A DNA stretch of 64,000 bases, taken from assembly GCF_014642075.1 (NCBI RefSeq), contig NZ_BMIK01000002.1, positions 248,001-312,000 on the forward strand, in the 5' to 3' direction. Both the position numbers and the translations under genes were made by a program. Of this stretch, positions 4,984-53,557 are shown piece after piece. The notes under the pieces were generated by a model. That model saw only the letters and a program-made list of their open reading frames with translations, was not told where the DNA came from and searched no databases. Every line of letters begins with the position of its first letter. Positions within the stretch are counted from its first letter, which is position 1. This DNA comes from Parapedobacter defluvii (lineage in GTDB: Bacteria; Bacteroidota; Bacteroidia; Sphingobacteriales; Sphingobacteriaceae).

Positions 4984-5017
4984 AAATCCGCCAAACCTGC
5001 GTTATCCGTGTTCCATC
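4984..5017. repeat. Dispersed 34-bp intergenic repeat, copy A
   Basis: This 34-base stretch begins aaatccgcc, has ctgcgttatccg in the middle and ends in atc. It matches 46138-46171 at 30 of 34 positions. It lies just past the stop of nadK on the minus strand. The second copy likewise sits at the end of a minus-strand gene, trpD. Confidence 0.7.
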
Positions 5018-9566: not shown

Positions 9567-9995
9567 CTAACTATTAATGTAATTTTCTAATTGGTTGATG
9601 GTCTGCTGCTGGTCTTCGATGATGTATTTGACCAAGTCACCGATAGAAAGCATACCGATCACTGTATCTCCTTCAACAACCGGGAGATGCCTGAAATGAT
9701 GATTGGTCATCAGCTGCATGCAATGATCAATGGCTTCATGCGGTGAGATGGTATGCGGATTAGGAGTCATCACCTCATACATGGGCGTATCTTTGGAGGA
9801 TTTTCCCTGTAGAATAATCTTGCGGGCATAATCCCTTTCCGTAAAGATGCCCCGTAATGCCCCGTTTTCAATGATCAGCAATGCACTGATGTTTTTTTCC
9901 ATCATCATCTTTAATGCTTCCAGTACAGAAACATCTTGGGATACCGAATAGACGACGGCTGGTTTGTTGTTGAGGATGTGCTTAACGGTTTTCAT
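9567..9995 (-). CDS. Two-CBS-domain protein
   Basis: 142 residues made almost wholly of a CBS pair: 'VSVLEALKMMMEKNISALLIIENGALRGIFTERDY' and 'ISPHEAIDHCMQLMTNHHFRHLPVVEGDTVIGMLSIGDLVK'. This is the stand-alone CBS protein type that binds adenosine nucleotides and is often stress- or hypoxia-related; no partner domain is present. Its start codon and about 100 bases upstream form one copy of the 108-bp duplicated element described below, so its regulation may be shared with other loci that carry the element. Confidence 0.88.
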   Translation of the reverse strand: MKTVKHILNNKPAVVYSVSQDVSVLEALKMMMEKNISALLIIENGALRGIFTERDYARKIILQGKSSKDTPMYEVMTPNPHTISPHEAIDHCMQLMTNHHFRHLPVVEGDTVIGMLSIGDLVKYIIEDQQQTINQLENYINS

Positions 9996-10096
9996 CTGTA
10001 AATAATTTTATTTCATCGGTCAGATGGAGCTTATCCTGTTTAAAATTTACATTTCCTTGTGTGATAAAAATGAAATTTCAAACAGGAACGGTTCAT
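9989..10096 (-). repeat. 108-bp duplicated 5' element, copy 1 (upstream of CBS gene)
   Basis: Read on the minus strand, this segment runs from about 100 bases upstream of the CBS gene through its ATG. It matches 37257-37364 on the plus strand over 108 bases with 7 differences and no gaps. It contains a dyad in which GTTTGAAATTT-CATTT faces AAATG-T-AAATTTTAAAC across 13 bases, so it can form a long hairpin about 40 bases before the ATG. No good TAnnTTTG promoter is visible inside (TAAATTTT is closest). Confidence 0.85.
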
Positions 10097-14736: not shown

Positions 14737-14785
14737 ACACAGATGACACGGATGCGTAAATCCGTTTAATCTGTGTCATCTGTGT
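14737..14785. terminator. Long hairpin between asnS and tsaC-type gene
   Basis: ACACAGATGACAC (14737-14749) pairs perfectly with GTGTCATCTGTGT (14773-14785), with an inner GGAT/ATCC pair. No T-run follows on the minus strand, so it may act as a processing or stabilising hairpin rather than an intrinsic terminator. Its words match those of other intergenic repeats here. Confidence 0.55.
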
Positions 14786-14798
14786 GCTAATTAAACCA

Positions 14799-36690: not shown

Positions 36691-37260
36691 ATGCGTATTA
36701 TCCTTGCTTCTCAATCGCCCAGACGGAAAGAACTGCTTTCATTGATGGGGCTTTCGTTTACGGTGGCTATCCGTGAAGTGGAGGAATCTTTCCCCGACGA
36801 ACTGGATCCGGTGACAGCGGTACGTTACATAGCCGAAAAAAAAGCCCAGGCTTTCAGGGAGGAAATTACCGATGCGTTGGTCATCACAGCGGATACCATT
36901 GTAACCATCGATGGCCGGGTACTTGGCAAGCCGAAGGATGAAGTCCATGCAAAAGAAATGCTCACCCTGTTATCCGGCAGGCGGCATGAGGTGATCACCG
37001 CAGTGGCACTCTTACATGAAGGAGCTATCGAGGTATTTCACGATCTCACCGAAGTGCATTTCCGGAGTCTATCGGCCGATGAGATTGATTATTATGTCCA
37101 GCATTACCAGCCCTTTGATAAAGCAGGTGCTTACGGTATCCAGGAGTGGATCGGCATTGTGGCCATTGAGAAGATCGTAGGATCGTACACCAATGTGGTC
37201 GGGCTGCCTACTGCGAAACTCAGCGAAGTGCTCCATTCCCGCTTTTTTAATGTTAAATGA
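36691..37260 (+). CDS. maf: Maf-family nucleoside triphosphate pyrophosphatase
   Basis: 189 residues. The opening 'IILASQSPRRKELLSLMGL' is the Maf signature with the substrate-binding SxSPRR. 'ALVITADTIVTIDGRVLGKPKD', 'LLSGRRHEVITAVAL' and 'GAYGIQEWIGIVAIEKIVGSYTNVVGLP' complete the family. The enzyme hydrolyses dTTP/UTP or modified nucleotides to monophosphates. It is the second gene of the kdsC-maf unit. Its stop codon (37258-37260) is the first part of the duplicated element, copy 2. Confidence 0.95.
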   Translation: MRIILASQSPRRKELLSLMGLSFTVAIREVEESFPDELDPVTAVRYIAEKKAQAFREEITDALVITADTIVTIDGRVLGKPKDEVHAKEMLTLLSGRRHEVITAVALLHEGAIEVFHDLTEVHFRSLSADEIDYYVQHYQPFDKAGAYGIQEWIGIVAIEKIVGSYTNVVGLPTAKLSEVLHSRFFNVK

Positions 37261-37364
37261 ACCGTCCATGTTTAAAATTTCATTTTTATCACACAAGGAA
37301 ATGTAAATTTTAAACAAGGTAAGCTCCATCTGACCGATGGAACAAAATTATTTACAGATGAAAA
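37257..37364 (+). repeat. 108-bp duplicated 5' element, copy 2
   Basis: Plus-strand copy of the region at 9989-10096 (inverted there), with 7 differences in 108 bases and no gaps. It begins at the maf stop and ends with an ATG (37358-37360). Here the dyad is better than in copy 1: GTTTAAAATTT (37269-37279) pairs perfectly with AAATTTTAAAC, and the adjoining CATTT with AAATG, giving 16 paired bases with one bulge around a 13-base loop. CCATC-tgacc-GATGG further on is a second small hairpin. Confidence 0.85.
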
Positions 37365-37414
37365 AGAATAAGGATAAAAAGAATAAGGATCAAGGAAAGA
37401 CGGGCGATCCTTGA
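37358..37414 (+). pseudogene. 18-codon open frame fused to the duplicated 5' element
   Basis: The ATG at the end of copy 2 opens a frame reading MKKNKDKKNKDQGKTGDP and stops at 37412-37414. The first three bases after ATG match the CBS gene start at the other copy, then similarity ends. The body is made of the AATAAGGAT words that pair with the downstream arm, so this is more likely a hairpin reached by accident than a real peptide gene. I list it because the start region is conserved between the copies. Confidence 0.3.
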
Positions 37415-37440
37415 TCTTTAATCCTTAGTCCTTAATCCCT
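37364..37440. terminator. Long imperfect hairpin of AAGGAT / ATCCTT words between maf and the TonB receptor
   Basis: The left arm has two AATAAGGAT units and GATCAAGG (37388-37395). The right arm starts with CCTTGATC (37409-37416), then AATCC-TTAGTCC-TTAATCC-type units. The two arms are near reverse complements. It lies between convergent genes and probably ends both transcripts. Confidence 0.6.
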
Positions 37441-37446
37441 AATCCT

Positions 37447-42242: not shown

Positions 42243-42257
42243 ACGGTTTTTGTGTTA

Positions 42258-42306
42258 ATTGATAGTTGACAGTTGATAATTGATAGTTGACAGTTGATAA
42301 TTGATA
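42258..42306. repeat. Tandem 21-bp repeat ATTGATAGTTGACAGTTGATA (2.3 copies)
   Basis: Two exact 21-base units (42258-42278, 42279-42299) and the first 7 bases of a third. The unit itself is built of GTTGATA/GTTGACA words. It fills the gap between NfeD-like and flotillin genes within one operon. Confidence 0.85.
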
Positions 42307-46137: not shown

Positions 46138-46171
46138 AAATCCGCCGAATCTGCGTTATCCGCGTTCTATC
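46138..46171. repeat. Dispersed 34-bp intergenic repeat, copy B
   Basis: Matches 4984-5017 at 30 of 34 positions in the same orientation. It fills the gap between trpD and trpF inside the operon; its right end overlaps the trpD stop codon (46167-46169). Confidence 0.7.
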
Positions 46172-50402: not shown

Positions 50403-50528
50403 TAATATTTCTATTATGATTTTTAAATTTTTTGTCAATATTTTTTGTGTTAAGTTTAAGTTGTTGATTGATAATATTTTATTGGCTACAAAATAGTGAT
50501 TTTTACAAAAAAATGGCTTTTTTCCACC

Positions 50529-53453: not shown

Positions 53454-53474
53454 ATGCGCTAAAGGCTTTGCTGC

Positions 53475-53557
53475 AAACTTAGCTAATTTGCCAGTAATAG
53501 GCAAGTTAGCTAAGTTTCACCTGCCTTTGAAAACGGAAGTGTCAGGTGAAACTTAGC
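53475..53557. repeat. Overlapping inverted repeats upstream of the M20 peptidase
   Basis: Arm A, AAACTTAGCTAATTTGCC (53475-53492), pairs with arm B, GGCAAGTTAGCTAAGTTT (53500-53517), 17 of 18 plus one U-G, with a 7-base loop. The right part of B together with the following bases, GCTAAGTTTCACCTG (53509-53523), pairs perfectly with arm C, CAGGTGAAACTTAGC (53543-53557). A:B and B:C exclude each other. A weaker fourth unit, CCGGTGAAGCTAG, follows. Confidence 0.8.

Follow-up and report, generated by a model that had tools for sequence, protein, structure and literature searches.

A family of small mobile elements that targets start codons in Parapedobacter and other Bacteroidota

The duplicated unit in the window and its anatomy

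The window, a 64,000-nucleotide stretch of the Parapedobacter defluvii genome analysed here, contains a CBS-domain gene and a maf gene, each adjoined by one copy of the same small sequence (Table 1). The original prediction had described these copies as an inverted pair, and an ungapped comparison of 9989-10096 (minus strand) with 37257-37364 (plus strand) confirmed it, with 101 of 108 bases identical. The same two arms (94%) were returned by a repeat search (seed 12, minimum 28), the next inverted pair in the window being of 34 nt, and the unit proper is 107 bp long. Copy 1 terminates on the ATG of the CBS-domain gene, within a few bases of which the match had been noted to end, and copy 2 starts at the maf stop, as had also been noted. 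No gene follows the 3' ATGAA of copy 2.

Table 1. Features of the two element copies and their neighbouring genes in the window.
Feature	Position	Strand	Basis
Element copy 1, type 1, including ATGAA at both edges	9990..10096	-	R2 match of 103.7 bits; BLAST family; site empty in 8/8 sister species
5' ATGAA edge of copy 1 (single in the empty site)	10092..10096	-	Empty-site logic
Long AT-rich hairpin of copy 1, CACACAAGG in loop	10038..10083	-	Folds of copy 2 and representative types; covariation across copies
Anti-start / guide motif CATCTG, copy 1	10021..10026	-	Complementary to CAGATG at 9993-9998; covariation
CAGATG, final three bases of the element and CBS start codon	9993..9998	-	Pairing, covariation
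Target ATGAA with CBS start codon	9991..9995	-	
CBS-domain gene, 142 aa, downstream of copy 1	9567..9995	-	PF00571
Element copy 2, type 1, downstream of maf	37257..37363	+	R2 match of 107.2 bits
5' ATGAA of copy 2, its TGA being the maf stop codon	37257..37261	+	
Long AT-rich hairpin of copy 2	37270..37315	+	Folds
Anti-start / guide motif CATCTG, copy 2	37327..37332	+	
CAGATG pairing with the motif, copy 2	37355..37360	+	
3' ATGAA of copy 2, 18-codon frame	37358..37362	+	
maf gene upstream of copy 2	36691..37260	+	PF02545

The unit consists, in order, of ATGAA, a hairpin, the anti-start motif CATCTG, an A-rich linker, CAG and a second ATGAA. When copies were aligned with their flanks, they read as ATGAA-nCC, a long hairpin, (G)GCTCCATCTGAC or a variant of it, the A-rich linker, ACAG and ATGAA. 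Elements measure about 50-160 bp, and the hairpin is the most variable part, with lengths of a few to about 100 bases within the family; its apical loop reads CACACARGG in many copies, including those from other families of the class. No terminal inverted repeats were present in the aligned copies, the edges of which are ATGAACC... and ...ACAGATGAA, and the definition of a classical MITE (DDE transposase) is thus not met. The earlier claim that the copies carry no transposon ends stands for classical inverted repeats and fails otherwise, since ATGAA stands at either edge and a motif within the element is complementary to each.

Several variants of this plan were observed. In one subtype (L321, L323, L345), a second small hairpin, such as CCCGTGAAGACGGGACAGGTAC, lies within the CATC/TGAC motif. 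In copies at four loci (L041, L347, L348, L174), the hairpin arm is longer by about 50 bases; these additions are partly alike and look like insertions of a still smaller element. In the subtype of L327 and L332, the path from the 5' ATG to the target ATG, read by eye, is open and in phase, so that the gene could gain an N-terminal extension through the element.

Other repeats of the window were recorded apart from the two copies. Low-complexity AAGAATAAGGAT units and an inverted counterpart, ATCCTTAGTCCTTAATCCCTAATCC, occupy 37363-37446, between copy 2 and a convergent TonB-receptor-like gene (plug domain). A 34-nt repeat (AAATCCGCC..CTGCGTTATCCGTGTTC) occurs three times (4984-5017, 14758-14791 and 46138-46171), each time near an ORF boundary, and is possibly another small repeat family. 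AT-rich repeats TTGATAGTTGACAGTTGATAAT form a tandem pair at 42247-42301, with a third 8 kb off at 50442-50475. A third match in the window to the covariance model R2 described below (53473-53551, E 0.02) was rejected as a member because it has no ATGAA edges; this stretch contains long palindromes, GCAAACTTAGCTAATTTGC / GCAAGTTAGCTAAGTTT, plus CACCTG/CAGGTG.

Distribution of the copies and empty insertion sites

We searched the genome and its relatives for further copies. BLAST of the P. defluvii genome itself (G000, 5.8 Mb, 66 contigs) found nine, including the two of the window, all at least 91% identical to copy 1; eight span the full unit, and the ninth (L009), a fusion of a type 1 front and a type 3 rear, spans 92 bases. 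Two covariance models were then used, R1 built from ten copies and the broader R2 from 50. With R2, the same genome gave 33 matches at E <= 0.01; once a single echo on the opposite strand is discounted, 32 own copies remain. Eight other genomes of the genus have 2 to 24 R2 matches each, and records of Parapedobacter indicus and P. pyrenivorans carry the element. R1 matches (E <= 0.01) were obtained in 126 of 301 genomes of the family and 13 of its 25 genera, the weakest being uncertain; since R1 scored 13 candidates per genome, the per-genome counts are floors. Across the phylum (R1, E <= 1e-4), 7 of 395 genomes matched, five of which belong to other families; 12 of the 13 matches in these five end on ATGAA and one (L277) does not. 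A chance local duplication would account for two copies 27 kb apart within the window, and it is refuted by the numbers found in the genome and in the family, which leave it a negligible prospect.

Outside cellular genomes, the plasmid and phage collections gave no BLAST match to the single 141-base query used. A pattern scan of IMG/VR returned 36 loci, with two clear element matches and one weak; of the clear ones, both short, L387 precedes a 273-codon ORF and L357, which has TTGAA at the model's 5' edge, precedes a 102-codon ORF. From these members, the element may reach into phage or prophage genomes. No autonomous version with an ORF between the element halves was seen among 76 pattern loci, 70 of which have a model match; the other six lie within stop-free frames of 130-726 codons.

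The Rfam models gave no match at gathering score over the element, neither in the window nor in sets of 11 and 12 loci, and membership in HEARO (RF02033) or another Rfam family, judged by covariance model, was therefore not supported. Two matches below threshold were taken as chance, SECIS_5 in L010 (E 0.32, 27.4 of 50 bits) and mir-4659 on both strands of L144 (E 0.006 and 0.025; 32.3 and 30.1 of 92 bits). The Pedobacter-like locus L144 also holds, apart from the element, a DUF805b RNA above gathering score (378-413). No description of such an element was found in the literature, subscription papers and preprints not being covered.

We compared occupied sites with the corresponding sites of other genomes. 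Base-exact empty sites were found for two insertions only (L059 and L004), in three other genomes, and they have one ATGAA where the occupied site has two. At L059, the element lies between a conserved leader and the gene start, and the leader joins the gene directly in G216 and G301 (leader identity of 97% over 64 bases and 94% over 88 bases, gene identity of 86% and 78%, respectively); the ATGAA at query positions 502-506 and 603-607 correspond to the identical five bases in both genomes. At L004, G002 reads ...gttatt|ATGAAGGATGAC and the P. defluvii genome ...gttatt|ATGAACCG...ACAG|ATGAAAGATGAC; the base after ATGAA differs between the two, and the latter has an extra T before the 5' ATGAA. 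Having ATGAA at both edges when occupied and once when empty, the site keeps its start codon. Upstream of the L059 insertion, at about 1168-1207 and 1448-1481, short stretches recur in many genomes of that genus; judged from sequence, they may be unidentified repeats or conserved leaders, and no tRNA is there.

At the site of copy 1, the CBS-domain gene and its ATGAA start were found in 8/8 sister genomes and the element in 0/8, the leaders being too diverged for a base-exact junction (G007 covered 199 bases upstream only). For L003 and L002, the element is missing in the relatives that were read, and their leaders differ in length, so that these empty sites are not base-exact. No element was found in the 200 bases after the maf match in eight relatives. 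We found also tandem copies with a common ATGAA (L150, L151) and a nested copy (L328), in which a small element sits at an ATGAA inside the hairpin of another element. Of the two readings first offered, regulatory cassette or small mobile repeat, the second is borne out by the 32 genomic copies and the precise empty sites, while support for the first is limited to covariation, conservation and predicted folds.

Position at start codons and pairing within the element

The start codon inside the repeat, which the original prediction had pointed out, proved genuine and general across copies. At the 3' edge of the match, every own copy but the fused L009 ends on ATGAA (31 of 32). An ORF of 100 aa or more follows directly in 27/32 (L009 counted via its fused rear), so that the insertion restores a start codon. 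The five others are L327 (contig ends after 32 codons), L005 (56 aa), L006 (copy 2), L007 and L325. The window has 192 ATGAA, 15 at ORF starts, 156 inside ORFs and 21 elsewhere, as tallied on 54 ORFs that we picked from the ORF list. If insertions within genes are lost, the share expected at starts is 15 of the 36 non-coding ATGAA (about 42%), against which 27/32 gives a binomial p of 8e-7; p is 0.003 even with 60% expected. These p-values take related copies as independent, and selection after random insertion may be an alternative source of the preference for start codons.

The pattern holds in many genomes. All of the 133 tabulated copies (109 distinct sequences) end on ATGAA and 123 begin with it; 118 start a reading frame that spans at least 60 codons or stays open up to the locus end. 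This set includes orthologous copies, and 71 come from pattern loci, 69 of which overlap the pattern fixing GGCTCCATCTGAC and CAGATGAA; one batch of the table came from 75 model matches, of which three echoes and one match truncated where its locus stops were left out. Because the pattern fixes these motifs, the counts of this table and the pairing counts below lean on the other copies. The 62 copies from other sources all end on ATGAA, and 52 of them satisfy the same ORF criterion. The base 3' of ATGAA is A in 113, T in 27, C in 9 and G in 0 of 149 elements, and G follows in 19 of 202 ORF starts (p = 4e-5); the models favour T at this position, which may contribute to the bias.

The genes that follow the copies are unrelated. 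They encode proteins with a CBS domain, a phosphodiesterase, a glutathione peroxidase (GSHPx), a gamma-glutamyltranspeptidase, a LytTR regulator and SusD, as well as a metallo-hydrolase, TraM (conjugative transposon), TetR, GH109, HlyD and others. In a Pfam scan of 17 genes after the 32 own copies, the L333 and L008 proteins had no Pfam match, and no common pathway was evident among the 17, as would be required for a riboswitch or regulon.

The anti-start motif is paired with the 3' edge in a helix, P1, in which CATNNN faces NNNATG. Of 151 distinct elements, 144 could be scored, seven being not scorable. The three variable positions read CTG/CAG in 108, CTA/TAG in 5, TAG/CTA in 3, and CAG/CTG, CTT/AAG and CCG/CGG in 1 each; in five elements with GAG/CGA, CAT/ATG and one G-C pair are retained around a tandem G-A/A-G. 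The 36 elements other than CTG/CAG have 66 of 108 positions Watson-Crick, compared with an average of 43 and a maximum of 59 in 5000 shuffles. Misfits exist, some of them in the P. defluvii genome: CAC/CAG (6; type 3), GCA/CAA (L333), CTG/CTC and others.

At the other edge, the 5' ATGAA and the next bases pair with the bases before and in the motif T(T/C)C(C)AT-NNN, forming the base of the long hairpin. This edge helix covaries in other families, where AACGCCC/GGGCGTT, AACATCC/GGATGTT and AATGCC/GGCATT were read from the alignment. RNAalifold returned no pairs on the first all-type alignment, which in our opinion results from MAFFT misplacing the shorter type 3, and types 1 and 2 were then used to define the structure manually. 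In A5, a stricter alignment of model hits that replaced A4, which held opposite-strand palindrome echoes, changes on both sides were present in 15 of 22 pairs, with 74 cells compared with 15 in shuffles; A5 is fitted to the model structure and the shuffles leave relatedness in.

The evidence on the strand is mixed overall. Predicted folds including the edges were better for the antisense strand in 71 of 90 non-sucC elements and 16 of 19 sucC elements, and wobbles at the hairpin base also favour that strand. In the upper hairpin alone, the G-U pairs number 79 on the sense versus 50 on the antisense strand (80 elements) and 16 versus 7 (19 elements), folding of the same 80 being clearly better on neither strand (40 against 37); P1 has 4 wobbles on the sense and 1 on the antisense strand. 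We infer that the edge pairing would serve movement as single-stranded DNA and that the upper hairpin and P1 would serve the mRNA. The predicted probability that the AUG is unpaired averages 0.23 with the element and 0.44 without it (27/32 own loci, p = 0.0015), the direction of the change varying between individual loci.

In Pedobacter, some copies are old. One precedes sucC (named by NF001913) in many species, and others lie before lpd, trpS and a menaquinone-biosynthesis gene. Over 19 distinct sequences of the sucC set, hardly any variation is seen in the near leader, in ATGAACC or in GGCTCCATCTGAC...ACAGATGAA, and the hairpin arms change in step (compensatory). As 18 of 22 sucC copies come from the pattern fixing two motifs, the invariance there is partly built in; the leader, ATGAACC, the linker and the hairpin are not fixed by it. 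The retention of old copies under structural constraint is an argument for a function of the element in place. By our reading, the sucC copy is preceded by TTTG-N19-TAGCTTTG, which fits the Bacteroidota promoter consensus and would put the element in the transcript; at this one conserved old site, the promoter-like sequence is thus outside the element, on its upstream side.

Retention before sucC, lpd and the menaquinone-biosynthesis gene, a conserved structure with compensatory changes and the placement at start codons would all suit an ordinary cis-regulatory RNA, a riboswitch-like leader inherited with its genes, the copies forming one regulon. We regard this as improbable, and as a sole explanation it is contradicted by the lineage-specific presence with precise empty sites; tandem and nested copies, the unrelated genes downstream, the copies without a gene (L006, L007, L325) and the absence of an Rfam match at gathering score also speak against it. 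The element resembles cis-regulatory anti-start leaders in that its 5' motif pairs and covaries with the start codon, but, unlike them, it is mobile and precedes unrelated genes.

Known mobile systems and the proposed mechanism

We then compared the element with known systems. In IS200/IS605 and REP elements, guides located 5' of a hairpin choose the cleavage sites, and the target of ISDra2 is TTGAT, according to PMC5934647 and PMC8266576. The element is like IS200/IS605 (IS608, ISDra2) in having no terminal inverted repeats, a subterminal hairpin and a short fixed target. Its internal motif is complementary to both edges, covaries, and on the antisense strand lies 5' of the hairpin as a guide would, the active strand and the guide role being inferred. 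The insertion criterion is also met, a five-base target (ATGAA; TTCAT on the other strand) being retained in the left flank. Unlike these elements, it has neither tnpA nor tnpB, one hairpin serves both ends, the edges are identical five bases, the target is mostly a start codon, and the host genus has no Y1 gene except one broken frame.

With TnpA-REP (RAYT) elements, that is REP/REPIN, it shares a small size, multiple copies, a non-autonomous nature and a hairpin with a short guide motif. REP elements sit mainly between genes, but this element inserts precisely at ATGAA, at start codons. Its motif, T(T/C)C(C)AT-NNN, differs from GTAG, the REP motif in the same sources (PMC5934647 / PMC8266576), and the GTAG tetranucleotide with a cognate tnpA-REP, by which REP membership was judged, is lacking, as is any Y1 gene in G000.

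A structured element is also seen in HEARO, the IscB omega-RNA, which is said to insert just 5' of ATGA and has a different structure. The element differs from it by the absence of an Rfam match at gathering score and of a nuclease ORF. The word ATGA does not occur in the main text of the one paper searched on this point.

The search for a mover gave negative results. PF01797 (Y1_Tnp) had no match in the P. defluvii genome, and 8/9 genus genomes are without it; in the ninth, the frame is broken by three stops. Among the 301 genomes, Y1 occurs in 69 of the 126 that carry the element and in 100 of the 175 that do not (odds ratio 0.91, p 0.72), and 23 of the 42 genomes with a best element at E <= 1e-9 have no Y1. 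None of 31 Y1 loci showed element ends, the best two matches having E values of 1.4 and 2.9. A resident Y1 transposase was therefore rejected as the mover for the genus and is uncorrelated in the family, and the mover is probably not of this kind. In 24 genomes hand-picked from the 301, RVT_1 was found in 6 of 12 with strong elements versus 9 of 12 without R1 matches, and IS110 in 4 of 12 versus 7 of 12, with no association for either; the P. defluvii genome has two IS110 matches and no RVT_1. As Y1, RVT_1 and IS110 do not track the element, the likeness to IS200/IS605 and REP is one of mechanism, not of membership.

It remains possible, if doubtful, that the element is a non-autonomous IS200/IS605 or REP-type unit moved by a Y1 (HUH) transposase whose gene lies elsewhere, either on a replicon missing from the assembly or in a past host. 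The antisense-strand anatomy, the target kept in the left flank and the putative guide 5' of the hairpin are as in IS608 and REP, and TTCAT is like the five-base target of ISDra2. Against this reading stand the Y1 results above, from the genus, the 301 genomes and the Y1 loci, and the criterion of an encoded or resident Y1 is not met, a transposase outside the assembly not being excluded.

Movement or removal at the RNA level, by reverse splicing or in the manner of an intron with a guide pairing to both exon edges, was considered as well. It would agree with the complementarity of one internal motif to the two edges, with the precise edges of identical five bases and with the sense-strand lean of the upper-hairpin wobbles. 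Group I and II introns are far longer than 107 bases, no ribozyme family matched at gathering score, and the lack of RVT_1 in half of the strong-element genomes includes the P. defluvii genome; we consider this route very unlikely.

That these sequences are a mobile element family targeting start codons is close to certain. The best explanation overall, to which we give a probability of roughly 0.7, is a non-autonomous mobile element with precise ATGAA insertion, a guide motif and a start-codon helix. In this mechanism, the element would insert precisely at ATGAA, preferring an ATGAA that opens a gene. The internal motif is inferred to act as a guide that joins the two edges with the target within a single strand, as the guides of IS200/IS605 and REP do. 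Once inserted, the element would become the end of the 5' leader, and the CATNNN/NNNATG helix would cover the start codon and may dampen or regulate translation. Both the finding of ATGAA by guide pairing and the translational role are likely but inferred, and there are no expression data.

A broader proposal, which we put forward tentatively and at less than even odds, is that widespread start-codon-seeking elements of Bacteroidota, with a mover other than a resident Y1, a reverse transcriptase or IS110, read ATGAA by base pairing, rebuild the start codon and plant a portable translational switch on unrelated genes, some of which would retain it permanently.

Mobile elements usually break or overprint genes. 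By landing on a start codon and leaving a working start codon behind, this element can rewire the translation of many genes of a lineage with little damage. The finding raises a testable question, that of the enzyme which moves the element, and many natural pairs of insertion and empty site are on offer for measuring the effect of the element. If the internal motif truly picks its target by base pairing, the element may be retargetable. Such a family would explain the origin and spread of new 5' leaders.
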